Positions 1,460 through 29,956 of a stretch of 64,000 nt of DNA are shown in pieces; within the stretch, counting starts at the first letter, position 1, and each line of letters starts with the position of its first letter. Where the stretch lies: the NCBI GenBank assembly GCA_029782025.1, contig JAKOVR010000167.1:1-64000 (forward strand), in the 5' to 3' direction. Made by a program: the position numbers and the translations under genes. The notes under the pieces were generated by a model. That model was given only the letters and a program-made list of their open reading frames with translations, was not told the origin of the DNA and searched no databases. The DNA is from Actinomycetes bacterium (GTDB lineage Bacteria > Actinomycetota > Acidimicrobiia > Acidimicrobiales > Acidimicrobilacustridaceae).

Positions 1460-1496
1460 GGCCGCGACCCTTGCACACCTGCGAACATGGCACCGC

Positions 1497-3440
1497 ATGG
1501 GGGACCGCACGCCGCGCCGGGGGGAGGCCGCGGGCGTCCTGGCGGTGCCGGTGGCCGTGATGGCGGCGCTCGGGTGGCGCCTCCTGCGCACGGTCGCGGT
1601 GCCGGGTGCGGTCGATCACCCCAGCCAGTTCGCCCGGATGGAGTGGTTCCGCTCGGCCATGGCCACGGGCCGGGATCCGCTCGGGTTCACCCCTGCCCTC
1701 GGGGGCGGGTGGCCCGACCTGCAGCTCTACCCACCGGGCGTGGCCTCGCTCGGGTGGTTCTTCGCCGACGTGGTCCGCACGGGGCCCACCACCGGCTACT
1801 GGCTGGTCGTCGTCGTGGCGTGGTTCCTCCCCGCTCTCGCCGGGGCGGCCACGCTGCGCTGGGTCGGCGCCCGACCGTCGACGGCCGCCCTCGGCGGGAT
1901 CGTCGTCGGCGCGCTCTCCTTCGGCTACAGCGGGACGCGCGGCGGAGCGGCGATCGGTGTCCTCGGGGCCCGCATCTCCCTTGCCGCGTCGGTGCTGCTG
2001 ATCGGCCTGGTCGTCCGGGCGCGGCGCCGATGGTCGGACCGGTCACCCGGCCCGTGGGACCTCCTGGCCATCGGGACGAGCGCCTTCGCCACCGCGTGGT
2101 TCCATGCCTTCTTCCTCCCCGGCACGGTGCTCGCCGTGGTCGTGCTCCTCGCCCTCCCCGGTCCCCGGCCCCGGGCCCGCCTCGCCCTCGGTCTGGCCGC
2201 GTCCGCTGGCTTCCTCCTGGCCGGCTGGTGGTGGCTCGGCGCGGTCGGGCTCCACGATCTCGCCGTCCCCATCGACCGCGCGCCGGGTGAGACCGTCGTC
2301 GATCACCTCCTGCACCCGGCCTTCGACACCTTCGGCGGGATCGACTGGCTGGTCCTCGCCGTCGCCGCCGCGCTGACCGTGGCCCGCTCGGTCCGTCGCC
2401 GTCCCGGCCCGGCGCCGGGCGAGGCGGCCGGGTCGACGCCACGGTTCGCCCTCGACGGGCCGATGGTCCTCGTCGTGCCGCTCGCCGCGGCTGCGGTCGC
2501 CCTGTTGGTCGCCGCGCTGGACACCGCGCTCGGGTCCGGGCAGCTCGACGCCTCCCGGGTGGTCGACGGCGGCTACGTGTGGGCCGGGCTGGTCGCCTCC
2601 ATGGGGGTGGAGACGATCGGGCCGACGAGGCGGTCGTCGGCCCGCACCCTGGTCACGGTGGCCTGCGGCGTGCTGTGGGTCGGCCTGCAGTGGCGCGGCC
2701 TGCCGCCCTCGGCCTTCGCCGACTCGATCGACGCGGTCGAGCAGCGCGGTCCGGCGGCGGTCTGGCCGCTGTTGCGGGGCGGGGAGGGCCGCGTCGCGTT
2801 CACGGCGGGATCGTTCGAGGACGAGAGCAGCATCTGGACGTTGACCCATGCCCGCACGGGCCGGGAGCCGGCCATCGGTGGTCTCCTCCAGGCCCAGCTG
2901 CAGCACGGTCCGGGGGCCTCCCGGTTGGTGGGACACGGCAACGACCTCGACGACCGGTCGATCTTCGGCATCGCCTGGGCCGACCTCGCCGCCGACCCCG
3001 GTCGCCTCCGGACCGTGCACGACTGGCTGGTGGAGCTGCGGATCACCACCGTGGTGAGCGAACGCCGGGCCGGGGTGACCCCGCAGCCCGCCGACGTCCT
3101 CGCCGCGGCGCCGGCGCTGTTCCGTCGGGCGGGCGGGAGCGGCGCCCTCGACGTGTGGGACGTCCTCGGTGCCGACCCGGCAGTCGTGGTGCCGGACCGG
3201 GTCCGGCTGATCGAGGGCGCCGGCTGGATCGCCACCGACCCCGAGGCCCGCGACGGCCTGGTCGCCACCGCCGGCCTCGACCGGTGGCGCCAGCCGGTGG
3301 TGGTCGTCCCGCCTTCGCGCCGGGCCGCCATCGAGCCCGTCGAGCCGACCGGGGCCCGGTGGCGCCTGGTCGGGCCGGCCGCAGCGCTGCCGGCGGGGGT
3401 GGGGGCCGTCGTCGCCGCCCGTCGGGCCAGGCGCCCCTAG
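1497..3440 (+). CDS. Polytopic membrane protein, 6-pyruvoyl-tetrahydropterin synthase-related type
   Basis: This integral membrane protein of 647 residues has many hydrophobic helices in its first 400 residues (for example around YWLVVVVAWFLPALAG) and a more polar C-terminal part. The early motif HPSQFARMEWFRSAMATG followed by GGGWPDLQLYPPGVASL resembles the PTPS-related/GT-C-like membrane family, in which such loops follow the first helix. By analogy it could be a lipid-linked glycosyltransferase or have another envelope role; no substrate can be assigned. Start choice: ATG 1497 follows the divergent ppnP start and gives a short cytoplasmic N-terminus before the first helix; an in-frame ATG at 1458 is possible. 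Its TAG stop is part of the TAGTGT -10 of the next gene. Confidence 0.6.
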   Translation: MGDRTPRRGEAAGVLAVPVAVMAALGWRLLRTVAVPGAVDHPSQFARMEWFRSAMATGRDPLGFTPALGGGWPDLQLYPPGVASLGWFFADVVRTGPTTGYWLVVVVAWFLPALAGAATLRWVGARPSTAALGGIVVGALSFGYSGTRGGAAIGVLGARISLAASVLLIGLVVRARRRWSDRSPGPWDLLAIGTSAFATAWFHAFFLPGTVLAVVVLLALPGPRPRARLALGLAASAGFLLAGWWWLGAVGLHDLAVPIDRAPGETVVDHLLHPAFDTFGGIDWLVLAVAAALTVARSVRRRPGPAPGEAAGSTPRFALDGPMVLVVPLAAAAVALLVAALDTALGSGQLDASRVVDGGYVWAGLVASMGVETIGPTRRSSARTLVTVACGVLWVGLQWRGLPPSAFADSIDAVEQRGPAAVWPLLRGGEGRVAFTAGSFEDESSIWTLTHARTGREPAIGGLLQAQLQHGPGASRLVGHGNDLDDRSIFGIAWADLAADPGRLRTVHDWLVELRITTVVSERRAGVTPQPADVLAAAPALFRRAGGSGALDVWDVLGADPAVVVPDRVRLIEGAGWIATDPEARDGLVATAGLDRWRQPVVVVPPSRRAAIEPVEPTGARWRLVGPAAALPAGVGAVVAARRARRP

Positions 3441-22574: not shown

Positions 22575-23738
22575 GTGGAAACCGTCGCCTCGCCGCCCCC
22601 GTCGACCGATCACCCGCTGGAGATCGCCGGCATGCCGCCGGACGGGGCCTACGCCGAGGACGAGAAGTTCCACTGGCTGGCGTCGGCACCGTTCTTCCTC
22701 GTCCACCTGAGCCCGCTCCTCTTGTTCTTCACGGGCTGGTCGTGGAAGGCCGTCGCCCTCGGGGTGGCCACCTTCTGGATGCGGATGTTCTTCATCACCG
22801 CCGGCTACCACCGCTACTTCTCGCACCGCAGCTACAAGCTGGCCCGCGTGCCGCAGTTCCTGATGGCGTTCGGCGGTACGACGGCGGCCCAGAAGGGCCC
22901 GCTGTGGTGGGCCGCCCACCATCGCGACCACCACCGCTTCTCCGACACCGACCGCGACCTGCACTCGCCCCAGCGCGGCTTCTGGTGGAGCCACGTCGGC
23001 TGGATCCTCTGCGAGCGCAACTCCGAGACCAAGCTCGACCGCATCAAGGACTTCGCCAAGTACCCCGAGCTGCGGTTCCTCAACAAGTTCGACTGGCTGG
23101 GCCCCTGGACCCTCGGCGTCGTCTGCTTCCTCATCGCCGGCTGGCAGGGCGTGGTGATCGGTCTCCTGATCTCGACCGTCGTCACCTGGCACGCCACGTT
23201 CTGCATCAACTCGATGGCCCACGTCTTCGGCCGCCGCCGGTACGTCACCGAGGACACCAGCCGGAACTCGGCCCTGCTCGCCATCATCACGATGGGCGAG
23301 GGCTGGCACAACAACCACCACTACTACCCCGTGTCGGCCCGGCAGGGCTTCTACTGGTGGGAGTGGGACCCGTCCTTCTACATCCTCAAGGCGCTGAGCT
23401 GGGTCGGGATCGTCAAGGACCTCAAGCGTCCGCCGGAGTGGGCGTTGACCTCGAGCCGGGTGCGCGACGGCAACTTCGACATCGGCATGTTCCGGGCCCA
23501 TTGGAACAAGGCCACCCGCGCCGTCGCGGCGGCATCGGAGCAGCTGACCGACCGCGTGAGCGAGCGCAAGGCGGCGGCGGGCGAGTCGCTGGCCGAGAAG
23601 CGAGCAACGGTCGAGGCCGGCTTGGCCGCCAAGAAGCTCGCCCTCGAGTCCTTCGTGCGGGGGTCGCTCGAGTCGGCCGAGGAGCTGGCGTCGTTCACCA
23701 AGCGCACCCAGCGGGACCTCGCCGCCCGGCCCGACTGA
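22575..23738 (+). CDS. Acyl-CoA/fatty-acid desaturase (delta-9 type) with C-terminal helical extension
   Basis: The 387-residue membrane di-iron enzyme carries all three histidine boxes: HRYFSH at residues 79-84, HHRDHH at 115-120 and HNNHH near residue 243. Hydrophobic helices lie at about 36-52, 58-76 and 175-205. It introduces a cis double bond into saturated acyl chains with O2 and an electron carrier. After the desaturase core ends, roughly 80 residues form a charged, Ala-rich helical tail (for example KAAAGESLAEKRATVEAGLA), which is not part of the usual family length. The gene is preceded by a TetR-like palindrome and a leaderless-type promoter. A P450 gene follows after 48 bp with its own promoter. 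Confidence 0.9.
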   Translation: METVASPPPSTDHPLEIAGMPPDGAYAEDEKFHWLASAPFFLVHLSPLLLFFTGWSWKAVALGVATFWMRMFFITAGYHRYFSHRSYKLARVPQFLMAFGGTTAAQKGPLWWAAHHRDHHRFSDTDRDLHSPQRGFWWSHVGWILCERNSETKLDRIKDFAKYPELRFLNKFDWLGPWTLGVVCFLIAGWQGVVIGLLISTVVTWHATFCINSMAHVFGRRRYVTEDTSRNSALLAIITMGEGWHNNHHYYPVSARQGFYWWEWDPSFYILKALSWVGIVKDLKRPPEWALTSSRVRDGNFDIGMFRAHWNKATRAVAAASEQLTDRVSERKAAAGESLAEKRATVEAGLAAKKLALESFVRGSLESAEELASFTKRTQRDLAARPD

Positions 23739-23774
23739 TCCGGCCACCCGACCGCAGCCACACGCCCTCGGGGG

Positions 23775-23780
23775 TAGGGT
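23775..23780 (+). promoter_or_regulatory. -10 TAGGGT, leaderless start of P450
   Basis: TAGGGT, 6 nt, then ATG 23787; no ribosome-binding site. Confidence 0.5.
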
Positions 23781-23786
23781 CGGTCC

Positions 23787-25019
23787 ATGGCTGCTGAGGG
23801 CGAACTGGAGCTGCTCGACGTCTTCGCCAACTTCGACGACGACACGAGGACCGATCCCCACCCGCTGTACCACCGGTTGCGGGCCACCGCCCCCGTGGCC
23901 CACTCGCCCACCTTCGACGACAGCTACCTGCTCACCCGCTTCGCCGACTGCGAGGCCGTGCTCCGGGACACGCGGTGGAGCAGCAACCCCGTCCACCGGC
24001 GGGCGCCGCGGGGCGACGAGGCCCCCGACTTCCGGGAGTCGGCGGCCAGCAGCGGGGCCAACGTGCTGCTGTTCCTCGACCCGCCCGACCACACCCGCCT
24101 CCGCAAGCTGGTCAACAAGGCGTTCACGCCCCGCACCGTCGAGCGGCTCCGGCCCCGGGTCCAGGAGATCGTCGACGTGCTCCTCGACGAGGCCGAGGAG
24201 CGGGGCGAACTCGACATCGTGGCCGACTTCGGGTTCATGGTGCCGGTCACGGTGATCTGCGAGCTGATGGGCGTCCCGGTGGAGGACCACCACCTCTTCG
24301 GCCCGTGGTCGTCGGCGGCCAGCCGGCTGCTCGACGGGATGGTCGACGAGGAGACGATGATGGCCGGGGTCGGGGCCTTCATGCAGATCATCAACTACTT
24401 CAACGACATCTACGAGGAGCGCCGACGCCACCCGGGCGACGACCTCATCACCGCGCTGGTGCAGGCCGAGGAGGAGGGCGACCGGCTCACGGAGGAGGAG
24501 CTGCGGTCGATGACCGTGCTGCTCTTCATCGCCGGCCACGAGACCACCACCAACCTGATCGGCAACGGCATGAAGGCTCTGCTCGAGCACCGCGACCAGT
24601 TCGAGCGTCTCCACGCCGACCCGTCGCTCGCCCCGTCGGCGGTGGAGGAGCTGCTGCGCTACGACGGCCCGGTGCACATCACCGCCCGCATCGCCACCAC
24701 CGATCTCGAGGTCGGCGGCCACCGGTTCGAGCAGGGGCAGTCGGCCGCGCTGCTCCTCGCCGCCGCCAACCGCGATCCCGCCCATTTCCCCGACCCGGAC
24801 CGGCTCGACATCGGCCGCGACGACGGGCCCCACCTCGCCTTCAGCTACGGGATCCACTACTGCCTCGGCGCCTCGCTGGCCCGGCTCGAAGGGCAGATCG
24901 CCATCGGCACCCTCGTGCGTCGCTTCCCCGACATGGAGCTGCTCACCGATCCGGTCCGCTACCGCGACCACTTCGTGCTGCGGGGTCTGCGCGAGCTGCG
25001 CGTCTCGGTCCGGCCGTAG
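23787..25019 (+). CDS. Cytochrome P450
   Basis: The 410-residue P450 has AGHETTTNLIGNGM in the I-helix (near residue 250), EELLRYDGPVH with the ExxR pair (near residue 288) and the haem loop FSYGIHYCLGASLAR with Cys near residue 356. A His replaces the more common Asn/Gly before ETT. It lies between the fatty-acid desaturase and a small membrane protein whose start follows its stop by 2 bp, so the latter pair is probably an operon. A lipid or terpenoid hydroxylase role is plausible from context, but the substrate is unknown. Redox partners are not encoded in the window. Confidence 0.9.
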   Translation: MAAEGELELLDVFANFDDDTRTDPHPLYHRLRATAPVAHSPTFDDSYLLTRFADCEAVLRDTRWSSNPVHRRAPRGDEAPDFRESAASSGANVLLFLDPPDHTRLRKLVNKAFTPRTVERLRPRVQEIVDVLLDEAEERGELDIVADFGFMVPVTVICELMGVPVEDHHLFGPWSSAASRLLDGMVDEETMMAGVGAFMQIINYFNDIYEERRRHPGDDLITALVQAEEEGDRLTEEELRSMTVLLFIAGHETTTNLIGNGMKALLEHRDQFERLHADPSLAPSAVEELLRYDGPVHITARIATTDLEVGGHRFEQGQSAALLLAAANRDPAHFPDPDRLDIGRDDGPHLAFSYGIHYCLGASLARLEGQIAIGTLVRRFPDMELLTDPVRYRDHFVLRGLRELRVSVRP

Positions 25020-25021
25020 CC

Positions 25022-25639
25022 GTGGCCGCCCGGCCGGACCGCACCGGCCCCCGCTGGGCCGACGCGCGGGCCCGGGCGTCGGAGCTGGCCCCGAAGATGG
25101 TGGCCTACCTCCAGCGGATCGGCCCGGCCCTCGCCGCCCTGGCCCGGTCGGTGCGGGCCGTCGGCGTGGTCGGCCTCGTGGCGGCGACGCTCCTGTGGGT
25201 GGCGGTGCTGAGCGTGGTGCGGCCGTCGGGCCTCCCCGGGATCCTCGTGGTCGTCATCGCCCTCGTCGCCCTCGGCGCGCCCGGTGCGCTGCTGCTCTGG
25301 ACGGCGTGGGCCATCGGCCAGCTGGCCCAGCTCCCCGACGTCCTGCGCCGGTCGCCCGACCTCGTGCGCGACAACGGCGACGCCCTGGCCAAGCTCTACC
25401 TCGACACGGCGGCGGAGTGGGGCGAGGCCAGCCGGTTCCGCCTCCTCGGCGGCGGCCTGGTGCGGGCCACCAAGCTGGCCTGGGCCGTGGTGTCGGACCT
25501 GCCCGACGTCAGGGGCGCGCTCGTGCTGGCCAGCCCCTGGTACCTGGCCGCGTCCGGCGTGGCCCTCGCCCTGGTGGTGGGCGAGGTGGTGGCGGTGCCG
25601 ATCGGGGTGGCGGTGGCGGTCGTGCTCAGGCTTGGTTGA
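25022..25639 (+). CDS. Small membrane protein of unknown function
   Basis: The 205-residue protein starts at a GTG 2 bp after the P450 stop and is probably co-translated with it. It has two adjacent hydrophobic helices (about residues 45-62 and 65-90, within VGLVAATLLWVAVL and GILVVVIALVALGAPGALLL), an amphipathic middle and a final hydrophobic segment (about 178-205). No family is recognised. Its last 14 bp overlap the 3' end of the convergent VOC gene. The translational link suggests a function connected with the P450, such as membrane tethering; this is speculative. Confidence 0.6.
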   Translation: MAARPDRTGPRWADARARASELAPKMVAYLQRIGPALAALARSVRAVGVVGLVAATLLWVAVLSVVRPSGLPGILVVVIALVALGAPGALLLWTAWAIGQLAQLPDVLRRSPDLVRDNGDALAKLYLDTAAEWGEASRFRLLGGGLVRATKLAWAVVSDLPDVRGALVLASPWYLAASGVALALVVGEVVAVPIGVAVAVVLRLG

Positions 25640-26366
25640 GCTCCACGATGTTCCCGCTCGGGTCGCGGAGGAACACCTGGCGGCCGGTCCCGATGTCGTT
25701 CCAGTTGCCGGCCTCGATCCCGGCCTCCCGCACGGCGGCGATGGCGGCGTCGATGTCGACCACGTCGAGGGCGAAGTGGTTGTTGGGGTTGCCGCCGCCC
25801 GGGAGCTCGATGAGGTGGACCTGCACGCCGTTGGGGGCGATCAGCCAGGCGCCGGCGATGCCGATGTCGGGCCGGGGGATCGGGGTGAGCCCGAGCCCCT
25901 CGACGTAGAACGCCAGGGCCGCTTCGGTGTCGTCGACGTTGATCGACACGTGCTGCACCCCGGTGATGCCGATCCGGTTGGCGACCGGGCCGGCGCCGCC
26001 GCCCTCGCCGGCGCGCCGCTCGGCCTCGATCTGGCGGGCACTGGCCCGGGCCAGGCCGGCCGGGTCGAGGATGCGCCGCTCCACCACGACGGTGGTGTCG
26101 AGCCGGTCGTCGCCGTCGAGGTCGCCGACGACGGTGGTCTCGCGCTCGAGGATGTCGGGGGTGCCGTCGCCGTCGAGGTCGGTGATGCGGGTGCTGCGGA
26201 TCACGGCGATGTCGTTGCGGCCGTCGCCGTCGAGGTCGACGCCCTGGGCCGAGGTCTGGATGATGGTGTCGGGCCGGCCGTCGCCGTCGGTGTCGATGGC
26301 GGCGATCTCGAAGGTCGAGCCGGGCTCGGGCCGGTCGTCGGCGGTGCTGCTCTCGGGATCGGGCAT
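25626..26366 (-). CDS. VOC (glyoxalase/dioxygenase) protein with four N-terminal Asp-rich repeats
   Basis: The 246-residue protein has two parts. Residues 25-90 hold four copies of a DxDGDGxxD motif (DTDGDGRPD at 25, DLDGDGRND at 44, DLDGDGTPD at 63, DLDGDDRLD at 82), spaced exactly 19 residues apart, like calcium-binding EF-hand, dockerin or thrombospondin type-3 loops. Residues 135-246 form a vicinal-oxygen-chelate domain with putative metal ligands His139, His184 and Glu242 (HVSINV, VHLIEL, NIVELNQA). There is no signal peptide, although such repeats usually occur in exported proteins. VOC enzymes act on small electrophiles, catechols or antibiotics; the substrate is unknown. A leaderless-type TACCCT supports the ATG. 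Confidence 0.8.
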   Translation of the reverse strand: MPDPESSTADDRPEPGSTFEIAAIDTDGDGRPDTIIQTSAQGVDLDGDGRNDIAVIRSTRITDLDGDGTPDILERETTVVGDLDGDDRLDTTVVVERRILDPAGLARASARQIEAERRAGEGGGAGPVANRIGITGVQHVSINVDDTEAALAFYVEGLGLTPIPRPDIGIAGAWLIAPNGVQVHLIELPGGGNPNNHFALDVVDIDAAIAAVREAGIEAGNWNDIGTGRQVFLRDPSGNIVELNQA

Positions 26367-26379: not shown

Positions 26380-27120
26380 TCAGCGCCGGGCGGTCACGAC
26401 CCGGGCCGGGGGGAACGTCAGCCACCGCCGCCCCGACCGCGTGACGTCGTGGCACCCGGCGGCGCGGAGCCCGTCGGCGACGGTGGCCGTACCCCGCCAG
26501 TCGACGATCAGCGCCGTGCCCCCGGGGGCGAGGACCCGGCCCAGCTCGGCCACCGCCGCGGCCCGCCGCTGCGGGTCGGCGATGCGGTGGAAGGCGAGGT
26601 TGGCCGTGACGAGGTCGACCGACCCGTCGGGGAGGGGGAGGGCCCAGAGGTCGGCGTCGTGGAGGACTACGCGGTCGGCCACGCCGGCGATGCCCACGTT
26701 GGCCTCGGCCACCGACCGGTGGTTGCCCGACACGTCACGCGACCGCCAGCGGTCCACGCCGTGCACGGTCCCGTCCGGGCCGAGCCGCCGGGCCACCTGG
26801 ACGAGGACCGGGCCCCGCCCGCATCCGGCGTCGAGCGCCGCGGTCGCGCCGTCGAGGGCGGCGCCGTCGAGCAGGCGGGACCAGAGCCGGCGGATCCCCA
26901 CCTTGGAGCTGGCCACCATGGCGGCGGCGGCCAGGCCGAGCCCGATCGAGACGGCGGCGAAGGGGATGACGACGCGGGCGTCGGCCACCCCCGATCCGAT
27001 GAAGATGCCGAGCATGATCGAGGCGAAGCACCCGGCCACGAGCCGGAACACCGTGCCGGGCGCATCGATGCCGTAGTCGGCCACCGCCGGTTGGTTGGGG
27101 ATGACGCGGCCGCCGGCCAT
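26380..27120 (-). CDS. SAM-dependent methyltransferase with N-terminal membrane hairpin
   Basis: The 246-residue protein begins with two hydrophobic helices (about residues 25-68, including LVAGCFASIMLGIFIGSGVA). A class I methyltransferase follows, with motif I AALDAGCGRGPVLVQVA near residue 92, an acidic post-I strand GTVHGVDRW, and LVTANLAFHRI as motif IV. The membrane hairpin suggests it methylates a lipid or membrane-bound metabolite. It starts 3 bp after the stop of the SDR gene upstream and is therefore probably in one operon with it. The substrate cannot be named. Confidence 0.75.
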   Translation of the reverse strand: MAGGRVIPNQPAVADYGIDAPGTVFRLVAGCFASIMLGIFIGSGVADARVVIPFAAVSIGLGLAAAAMVASSKVGIRRLWSRLLDGAALDGATAALDAGCGRGPVLVQVARRLGPDGTVHGVDRWRSRDVSGNHRSVAEANVGIAGVADRVVLHDADLWALPLPDGSVDLVTANLAFHRIADPQRRAAAVAELGRVLAPGGTALIVDWRGTATVADGLRAAGCHDVTRSGRRWLTFPPARVVTARR

Positions 27121-27123
27121 GGG

Positions 27124-27870
27124 TCAGGTGGCGTAGCCGCCGTTGACCGGGAGCACCTGGCCGGTGACCCACTCGGCTTCGGTGGAGGCGAGGTAGAGCA
27201 CGGCGGGGGCGATGTCCTCGGGGCGGCCCACCCGTCCGACCGGGTAGGAGCGGGCGAGCTTGGCGACGAGGTCGGCCGGCGTCGACGGCGGGCTGACGTT
27301 GCCGAGGGCGACGCAGTTGACGGTGACGCCGTGGGGGGCCGCCTCCTTGGCCAGCGCCTTGCTGAAGCCGATGGCCCCGGCCTTGGCCGCCGAGTACACG
27401 CTCAGGAACGGCTCGCCGTAGCGACCGGCGTCGCTGACGATGGTGACGATCCGGCCGAAGCCCCGCTCGACCATGCCGCCCACCACGGCGTGGCAGCAGT
27501 TGAGGACCCCGTAGAGGTTGAGGTCGACCCATGGCTGCCAGCGGTCGGGCGGCACCTCGTGGAAGGGCTGCAGGTCCCACGACGGGTTCGGCGGCACGCC
27601 GGCGTTGTTGACCAGGATGTCGATCGGACCGAGCGCCTCGACCCCCGCGACCATCGCCCGCACGGCGTCGCCGTCGGTGACGTCGCCGGCGATGCCGATG
27701 GCCCGGCCACCGCCGGCGACGATCTCCGCCGCCACGGCCTCGGCCCGGTCGGCGAAGAGGTCGTTGACGGCCACGGCGGCGCCCTGCTGGGCCAGGGTGC
27801 GGGCGATCGCCGCTCCCACGTTCTGCCCCGCGCCCGTCACGAGGGCGACGCGCCCGGTGAGGTCGAACAT
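27124..27870 (-). CDS. Short-chain dehydrogenase/reductase
   Basis: The 248-residue classical SDR has the cofactor motif VALVTGAGQNVGAAIA at residues 8-23, NNAG in DILVNNAGVPPNPS, and the catalytic Ser and YSAAK tetrad in IVSDAGRYGEPFLSVYSAAK. It ends with the conserved VTGQVLPVNGGYAT. It oxidises or reduces a hydroxyl or keto group with NAD(P). It resembles 3-oxoacyl reductase/3-hydroxyacyl-CoA dehydrogenase homologues found in acyl-CoA catabolic loci. The downstream methyltransferase gene is separated by only 3 bp. A 17-bp operator-like sequence shared with two other genes lies 19 bp upstream of the start. Confidence 0.88.
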   Translation of the reverse strand: MFDLTGRVALVTGAGQNVGAAIARTLAQQGAAVAVNDLFADRAEAVAAEIVAGGGRAIGIAGDVTDGDAVRAMVAGVEALGPIDILVNNAGVPPNPSWDLQPFHEVPPDRWQPWVDLNLYGVLNCCHAVVGGMVERGFGRIVTIVSDAGRYGEPFLSVYSAAKAGAIGFSKALAKEAAPHGVTVNCVALGNVSPPSTPADLVAKLARSYPVGRVGRPEDIAPAVLYLASTEAEWVTGQVLPVNGGYAT

Positions 27871-27942: not shown

Positions 27943-28455
27943 TCAGTCGGGCCAGCCGCCGGTGTGGGTGAGGTCCAGCGGCTCGGGCGGGGTGGCGCCA
28001 CCGCGCAGGTGGACGAGCAGCTCCCGGAGGCGGTGGGGGAGGAGGCGCAGGCCGGGGTCCCCGAGCACCTCGTCGAGGTGCCACCACCGGTGGCCCTGGA
28101 AGGCGATGGCCTCGAGGGCCTCCAGGCCGGCGGCGGTGGTGGTGGTGTGCCGGTCGTCGGCCCACGCCACGTGGATGTGCTCGAACTGCTCGAAGTGCAG
28201 GCCGGAGAAGGTGAACTCGGCCTCCTGGGTGGCGACGAGCGGGCCCAGCTCGACGGCCCGCAGCCCGGTCTCCTCGTGGATCTCCCGGCGGGCGGCGTCG
28301 GCGCTGGACTCGAACGGGTCCATGCCTCCGCCGGGGATCTCCCACCACTCGCCCTTGCGCGGATCGGCGGGGTCCCGGGCGCGGAGCAGCAGGATGTGGT
28401 CGTCCCTGCTCATCACCACCGCGCGGGCGGCCTGTCGCCGGAGGGTGAAGCTCAT
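27943..28455 (-). CDS. Nudix hydrolase
   Basis: The 170-residue protein has the complete Nudix box, from GGMDPFESSADAAR to REIHEETGL, at about residues 43-65. The box binds Mg2+ and cleaves a nucleoside-diphosphate linkage. The sequence LLRARDPADPRKGEWWEIPG before it is typical of MutT-like housecleaning or NUDIX-general proteins. Substrate specificity is not readable. ATG 28455 is preferred to the in-frame ATG at 28551 because the latter adds a Pro/Arg-rich tail that overlaps the small gene upstream. The small gene at 28475-28657 lies 19 bp upstream in the same direction, so the two may share a transcript. Confidence 0.85.
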   Translation of the reverse strand: MSFTLRRQAARAVVMSRDDHILLLRARDPADPRKGEWWEIPGGGMDPFESSADAARREIHEETGLRAVELGPLVATQEAEFTFSGLHFEQFEHIHVAWADDRHTTTTAAGLEALEAIAFQGHRWWHLDEVLGDPGLRLLPHRLRELLVHLRGGATPPEPLDLTHTGGWPD

Positions 28456-28474
28456 GCGGCGGCAGGCGGGGGGA

Positions 28475-28657
28475 TCACGTGGGGGCGGCGTCCTCGTGGT
28501 CGGGAGCGTCGGCGGTGGGGCACAGGCCCTCGTAGCCGGGCACCGGCCCACTCAACCAGTTGGGTGAGTAGGCGCACAGGAGGCGGCGAGGCTGCGTGCC
28601 GTGGTGTTCGCTCCGCAGCTCGACGTCGGCATCGTTGGCAACGTCGGTGGTGGACAT
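28475..28657 (-). CDS. Small protein of unknown function (60 aa)
   Basis: The 60-codon frame begins at ATG 28657 with a strong ribosome-binding site (AGGAGAAGG about 7 nt upstream) and a possible -10 TAGACT at 28702-28707. The protein has an acidic N-terminus (MSTTDVANDADVELR), a basic QPRR, then a segment between two cysteines, CAYSPNWLSGPVPGYEGLC, and an acidic, Pro/Ala-rich tail. No family is recognised. The clear translation signals in a genome rich in leaderless genes support it as real. It lies upstream of the Nudix gene and may be co-transcribed. Confidence 0.6.
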   Translation of the reverse strand: MSTTDVANDADVELRSEHHGTQPRRLLCAYSPNWLSGPVPGYEGLCPTADAPDHEDAAPT

Positions 28658-28804: not shown

Positions 28805-29956
28805 TCAGAGCCAGTCGATCCACCGGCCGTGGGCCTGGACCCAGGCAAGCGGCACGGCCACCGTCGGCTCGGGCCGCCCGCCGGTCCAGACGGCCAACCC
28901 GAGCAGGCTGGCGCCCCGGGGATCCTCGATGGCGGCGGGCCGTGGCGGCTCGGGGATCCAGGGAGCGATCGACGGGTACTCGGCCGTGATCGCCGCCAGC
29001 GGCCGCCCGGCCGCGGCGTGGGCCCGGAGGTGGGCGTGCACCTCCTCGCGCTCGTCGGGGGTGAGGTAGGCGAGGGCCCACGTGGCCAGCACCACCGGGA
29101 GGGCGCCGTCGGGCACCTCCTCGAGGGCGACGGGGAGGAGGCCGGTGGCGTTGCCGGCCCGCAGGTCGAGGCGATGCTCCCGGGCCGTGGCCACGGCGGC
29201 GCGGAAGCGGTCCAGCCGGTCGGTCAGCCCCGGCCACAGGCAGGCCTCGAGCCAGCGCACGTGGTCGTCGTCGGCGACGTCGAGAGGGTGCAGGTCGAGG
29301 CCCACCCGTCCGGTGATGGCAGGGATGGCGTCGGGCAGCGGGCGCGGGGTGGGACCGAGGATGTCGCAGTCGAGCTGGACCGGGCTCCCGTCGGGGCCGA
29401 GCGATCCCGCCGGCCGGCCGTCTCGCCGGTAGGTGATCCGGTAGCGGTCGGGCACGAGGTTGAGCCCGGCGCTCGGGCCGACCTCGACGAGGTGGACCGA
29501 CGGTGCCGGCGCCCCGTCGGACCCCGCCGACGCGGTGGCGGACGCGGTGGCCGTCGCGGCGGCGATGGCCAGGGCCGGCGCCGTGGTGGCGGTGCGGCCC
29601 ACCTCGTTGGTCTGGATCGAGCGCGACCGCATGAGGTCGGCCACCTCGGCGAAGCGCTCGACGAGGACGGCGCGGAAGGCCGGCCAGGGATCGGCCTCGA
29701 CCTCGCCGCGGTAGATGGCGTCGAGCGGGGTGCCGACGGCGAGGTACTTGACGGCGGCGAGGCACAGCACCGGTTCCACCTTGCGCTCGGCGGTGATCCC
29801 GACGAGCCGGGCGATGAGGTCCCGGTCGTCTGAGACGGCGGTGGCGATGCGCTCGTAGATCGGGCAGTAGCCGCCGAACTCGGCTTCGGCGAGGAAGCGC
29901 CAGAAGCGGGCGAGCCGGGTGGCCGGGTCGTCGTCGGAGGGGGAGATGTCGCTCAT
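28805..29956 (-). CDS. DUF2332 family protein
   Basis: The 383-residue protein matches the DUF2332 family. It begins with RLARFWRFLAEAEFGGYCPI and has the middle block VHLVEVGPSAGLNLVPDRY, followed by RVGLDLHPLDVADDDHVRWL. The C-terminal stretch LPVVLATWALAYLTPDERE looks like the end of a Rossmann-type methyltransferase core. A SAM-binding function is possible from the VEVGPSAGLN loop but is not established for the family. An Ala/Thr low-complexity insert (about residues 120-140) interrupts the middle. It is cytoplasmic. The promoter region faces the SDR gene at 30116, and no leaderless hexamer is evident. Confidence 0.75.
   Translation of the reverse strand: MSDISPSDDDPATRLARFWRFLAEAEFGGYCPIYERIATAVSDDRDLIARLVGITAERKVEPVLCLAAVKYLAVGTPLDAIYRGEVEADPWPAFRAVLVERFAEVADLMRSRSIQTNEVGRTATTAPALAIAAATATASATASAGSDGAPAPSVHLVEVGPSAGLNLVPDRYRITYRRDGRPAGSLGPDGSPVQLDCDILGPTPRPLPDAIPAITGRVGLDLHPLDVADDDHVRWLEACLWPGLTDRLDRFRAAVATAREHRLDLRAGNATGLLPVALEEVPDGALPVVLATWALAYLTPDEREEVHAHLRAHAAAGRPLAAITAEYPSIAPWIPEPPRPAAIEDPRGASLLGLAVWTGGRPEPTVAVPLAWVQAHGRWIDWL

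Follow-up and report, generated by a model that had tools for sequence, protein, structure and literature searches.

A VOC-domain protein joined to a period-19 DxDGDG repeat module, and small leaderless proteins with related repeats in Acidimicrobiia

Described systems closest to the locus

The role of calcium inside bacterial cells is a long-standing open question, and most known DxDGDG loops are extracellular. DxDxDG loops serve as Ca2+ binders in many folds that are not related to each other, and setting a single one between two beta-strands suffices to form a Ca2+ site (PMC3123361). The closest comparison for the locus analyzed here is with the Dx[DN]xDG loops found in strand-loop-strand contexts and with the calcium blades (Rigden et al. 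2011, PMC3123361). The nine-residue motif DxDGDGxxD is the same and is likely also placed between beta-strands; the repeat family considered here differs in carrying the motif at every turn, at a fixed step of 19 or 21 residues, in small leaderless proteins. In the window, i.e. the whole stretch of 64,000 nucleotides that was analyzed, the loop residues also resemble the first nine of an EF-hand loop (PF00036, PF13202), but the window protein has no helix-loop-helix and strands are predicted on both sides of its loops. A tandem period of 19 residues is shared with the RTX-like ice-binding region of MpAFP, a cell-surface adhesin of Marinomonas whose repeats bind Ca2+ (PMC3492233). The MpAFP loop motif is however RTX-type and not DxDGDGxxD, and the common period is probably a coincidence. 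On the enzyme side the reference is the VOC/Glyoxalase superfamily (PF00903): the domain match and the four ligand candidates are as in glyoxalase I-type members, whereas the second ligand position is a His in the subgroup of the window protein, and the additional N-terminal repeat module occurs in the window's genome only. Neither the literature searched nor Pfam/NCBIfam contained a described VOC/EF-hand family.

The fusion gene, its two halves and its neighbours

The fusion gene occupies positions 25626-26366 and is read on the minus strand, from an ATG at 26366 to a stop at 25626; its product of 246 aa joins a period-19 DxDGDG repeat module in frame to a VOC domain. The four loops, all on the minus strand, are DTDGDGRPD (residues 25-33, 26268-26294), DLDGDGRND (residues 44-52, 26211-26237), DLDGDGTPD (residues 63-71, 26154-26180) and DLDGDDRLD (residues 82-90, 26097-26123). 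They are followed by a putative helical linker (residues 102-119, 26010-26063, minus strand), suggested by a helix in two low-confidence single-sequence models, and by the VOC domain (residues 137-243, 25638-25958, minus strand). A preliminary description of the stretch had proposed a VOC metalloenzyme joined to Asp-rich loops, which is borne out by this reading frame and by the match to PF00903 (49.3 bits for a cut-off of 20.6, E=7.6e-13); related VOC models also match. It had placed DxDGDGxxD motifs at residues 25, 44, 63 and 82. The spacing of 19 holds throughout and the motif holds at the first three positions, while residue 82 opens a near-match, in which D1, D3, D5 and D9 are retained and the sole departure is Gly6 to Asp. 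The three metal ligands that it named, His139, His184 and Glu242, are right, but an equally invariant one had been overlooked: H139, H184, H198 and E242 (H11, H56, H69 and E114 of the alignment) are conserved in 13/13 homologues, and the VOC metal site is thus predicted to have four candidate ligands, not three. The reported lack of a signal peptide was confirmed, the repeat half having no hydrophobic N-terminus (maximal 15-residue Kyte-Doolittle mean of 0.47, compared to 2.35 in the leader of a secreted FG-GAP protein taken as control).

Many VOC matches were obtained from 60 relatives, and the nearest of them are 45-55% identical. VOC relatives from the same family and order are 39-55% identical to the window protein; their similarity to it starts where the VOC domain starts, and DxDGDG loops are present in none of the frames extracted for them. 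Within the window's own genome the next match to a sister VOC drops from 2.2e-29 to 2.4e-6, so that the fusion is the only close member of this VOC group there. Each half is single-copy in that genome and, by profile and sequence search, is present solely within the fusion. The VOC half gave no reaction-level match, every score against the NCBIfam equivalog models being far below its cut-off. Glyoxalase I, extradiol dioxygenase, Fos and methylmalonyl-CoA epimerase were considered as named reactions and set aside, since no curated reaction-level cut-off was reached.

The fusion gene probably closes an operon, as it is preceded by close co-directional genes. These encode a SAM methyltransferase-type protein with an N-terminal hydrophobic region (26380-27120, minus strand), which ends 13 bp before the fusion gene, a short-chain dehydrogenase (27124-27870, minus strand) located 3 bp before the methyltransferase gene, and a NUDIX hydrolase (27943-28551, minus strand) whose start codon is uncertain; the latter two are probable operon genes. 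The NUDIX-methyltransferase gene order is also found in the sister genome G004. At E 1e-20, the methyltransferase was found in two genomes of its own family only, G004 and G008.

The standalone repeat proteins

The relatives of the repeat half are small standalone proteins of about 95-190 aa, counted from the first plausible Met, with no added domain. Their Asp+Glu content is mostly 27-34%, and they have no Cys and no leader-like stretch. Within the order they contain three to seven loops at a step of 19, and in f64, a different family within the class, the loops follow each other at a step of 21. In 33 loci and the window protein, the loop steps are distributed as follows: 63 of 19 residues, 69 of 21, and 15 larger ones (37, 38, 41, 42, 63), nearly all of which are exact multiples that arise where the motif of one loop is changed. 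The segments between loops (10 or 12 residues) are rich in Thr, Val, Ile and Glu. In the window protein as in the standalone loci, the key Asp/Gly positions of the loops are fixed and the remainder is variable. The difference between the two steps would correspond to two residues in a beta-prone segment, which would keep the strand alternation, as a beta-strand tolerates.

The window protein belongs to this family by its constant spacing, its acidity, its lack of a leader and its profile match in its own genome (1.1e-39), a value to which the window sequence itself contributed through the profile; independent single-sequence matches within the order go down to 1.6e-11. The same profile, again including the window sequence, matches 26/395 genomes sampled from the class and, in a sample of 396 genomes from the phylum, the window's genome only. 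At the DNA level, the exact pattern of two DxDGDGxxD loops 19 codons apart is present in 10/397 genomes of the order. The reversed control pattern was found in none of them, which argues that the period-19 loops are not due to chance. The four 57-base units of the window gene are 56-68% identical as DNA. Outside the motif their residues are 7-36% identical, and all five Asp/Gly key positions are kept in spite of this divergence, which indicates that the loops are old and under selection rather than a fresh duplication.

Pfam recognizes in the repeat proteins a generic FG-GAP motif, with EF-hand, Excalibur and DUF6802 around or below their cut-offs, and no NCBIfam model matches at its cut-off. 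As judged from sequence, these small and highly acidic repeat proteins without leaders form a set that extends over the class and is described by no curated family. The FG-GAP matches cover the loops and could be taken to mean that these are part of a calcium-blade (FG-GAP/VCBS) beta-propeller. This is hardly credible: the match is confined to the short motif, about 17 positions in length, 19 residues are far too short for a four-stranded blade, and three to seven repeats are too few. The propeller was rejected on these dimensions, blades of about 40-60 residues being expected against a period of 19 or 21 in three to seven units. EF-hands were rejected as well, the window protein having no EF-hand match and no helix-loop-helix, with strands flanking the loops in weak models. 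Calmodulin was dropped as a homologue, the PDB matches of the repeat profile being judged motif-driven.

Genomic context gives no indication of function: around the standalone repeat genes, genes for an ammonium transporter, phosphofructokinase, GH4, a methyltransferase and SDR vary from locus to locus, and the sole widely conserved neighbour is a convergent M23 peptidase gene. Standalone repeats had no match in plasmids or phages. The f64 loci L139-L154 encode strict 21-residue standalone DxDGDG proteins in many genomes, and adjoin a convergent M23 peptidase gene, genes for MFS/EamA transporters or a gene for a Na/Pi cotransporter.

The preliminary description had taken such loops to be normal for exported proteins, an assumption that fails here, the nearest repeat relatives being small proteins without leaders. 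Type I-secreted RTX proteins also carry acidic Ca2+-type repeats and have no N-terminal leader. The fusion and the standalone proteins might then be exported without a classical signal peptide and fold outside at high Ca2+ in the RTX manner, a reading with which leaderless acidic repeats of the Ca2+ type are compatible (RTX adhesins, PMC3492233). It appears quite improbable: the motif is DxDGDGxxD and not GGxGxDxUx, there are no type I transporter genes among the annotated neighbours, the VOC domain occupies the C-terminal end, the expected site of a type I signal, and the neighbours in the window belong to cytosolic enzyme families.

Origin of the fusion and possible role of the repeat module

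In two sister genomes of the same family (G004, G009), the repeat gene and the VOC gene are each single-copy and lie on different contigs. The syntenic stretch of G004 (L165) contains a homologue of window positions 28805-29930, the NUDIX gene, the methyltransferase gene and then an unrelated convergent gene. The fusion gene is absent from this methyltransferase locus, so that the fusion looks like a lineage-specific joining of two normally separate genes, which would be the simplest history. Searches of the family, order, class and phylum samples gave no second fusion; viral contigs contained no relatives of it, and plasmids gave a single VOC match only.

This distribution, in one assembled genome and with a comparison set that includes no sister species of the genus, would also fit an assembly artefact or a recent functionless accident, the repeats being a passive, decaying remnant. 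The altered fourth loop and the lack of a clear ribosome-binding site ahead of the ATG go in the same direction. We nevertheless consider this unlikely. The frame is open across both halves with a uniform third-position GC (0.98-1.00), the gene follows a co-directional gene at 13 bp, and the loop ligands are all kept in 4/4 loops despite divergence elsewhere.

Within the order, the VOC gene is present in 9/11 other repeat-bearing genomes compared to 84/320 of the rest (Fisher p=2.6e-4), and in 8/10 compared to 43/108 when genomes of at least 3.5 Mb are considered (p=0.017), p-values which ignore shared ancestry. Outside the order this co-occurrence is gone: only 1/24 repeat-bearing genomes carry the VOC gene, hence the repeat family is independent of it. 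No enrichment of VOC genes is seen near repeat genes (3 in 300 kb). One standalone repeat gene (L083:6716-7693, in G088) immediately follows a co-directional VOC gene; this neighbour was dropped as a functional clue, as it belongs to another VOC subfamily and about one VOC gene per 100 kb was judged near background.

The tendency of the halves to co-occur within the order, together with four near-canonical loops that lack a leader and are joined to an enzyme, would suit a calcium sensor, in which loops filled upon Ca2+ influx refold and switch the VOC enzyme on or off. This seems to us rather improbable, as the VOC relatives retain all four predicted ligands and presumably work without the module, most repeat proteins are linked to no enzyme, and the helix pairs of EF-hands are not predicted in the weak models. 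The preliminary description had itself named orthologues lacking the repeats as evidence against its calcium-controlled or calcium-stabilised enzyme. Such repeat-free VOC relatives exist, and G004 and G009 have the halves as separate genes, from which it follows that the loops do not belong to the catalytic design. This weakens the case for calcium control of the enzyme: the comparative data lend no support to a control of catalysis by calcium, while calcium stabilisation appears plausible.

The reading that we favour, to which we give about even chances, is that of a Ca2+-stabilised structural or tethering repeat module added to an ordinary VOC metalloenzyme. The nine-residue loops would alternate with segments of 10 or 12 residues, most simply antiparallel beta-strands, and each loop would be expected to bind a single divalent ion, with Ca2+ as the likeliest candidate. 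The bound ions would let the strongly negative chain fold as a stiff meander with one ion per turn, as suggested by the strand-loop-strand alternation, the excess of negative charge and two weak models. These are single-sequence models (mean confidence 48 and 65); the repeat module appears in them, weakly (pLDDT 65 in one), as five strands followed by a helix, and a fold search with the models gave no match reaching E 0.001. Bacterial cytosolic free Ca2+ is low, so that weak loop sites may be empty or carry Mg2+/Mn2+. The module would then act as a metal-stabilised domain for solubility, partner binding or placement of the enzyme, and catalysis would reside in the VOC domain, at a His/His/His/Glu site of its own. 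We regard a role in structure or tethering as likelier than catalytic control because elsewhere the VOC domain presumably functions without the module. Metal binding, the strand fold, the cytoplasmic location and the structural role of the module are what we infer from these data.

The separate repeat family is a more interesting result than the fusion, and possibly a new repeat fold. It is conceivable, if somewhat doubtful, that in the leaderless period-19/21 DxDGDG proteins the DxDxDG calcium loop occupies yet another structural setting within the cell, next to the EF-hand and the calcium blade, namely a calcium-stacked beta-meander which buffers, senses or scaffolds with Ca2+, and is here wired to an enzyme. 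A compact, strictly periodic, leaderless family in one class, with one enzyme-fused member, offers a small system in which calcium binding inside the cell can be examined.

Two minor observations concern the surroundings of the locus and its VOC subgroup. On the plus strand of the window, positions 22575-25019 contain a fatty acid desaturase gene with a cytochrome P450 gene close behind it on the same strand. A protein of the same VOC subgroup (L007; G055:C8, ORF at about 1489-2265, minus strand) carries another domain at its N-terminus, about 130 residues long and of cupin-like reading (WELRLDPGQTSDLHRHDRDYV...); Pfam at 1e-3 matched its VOC part only.
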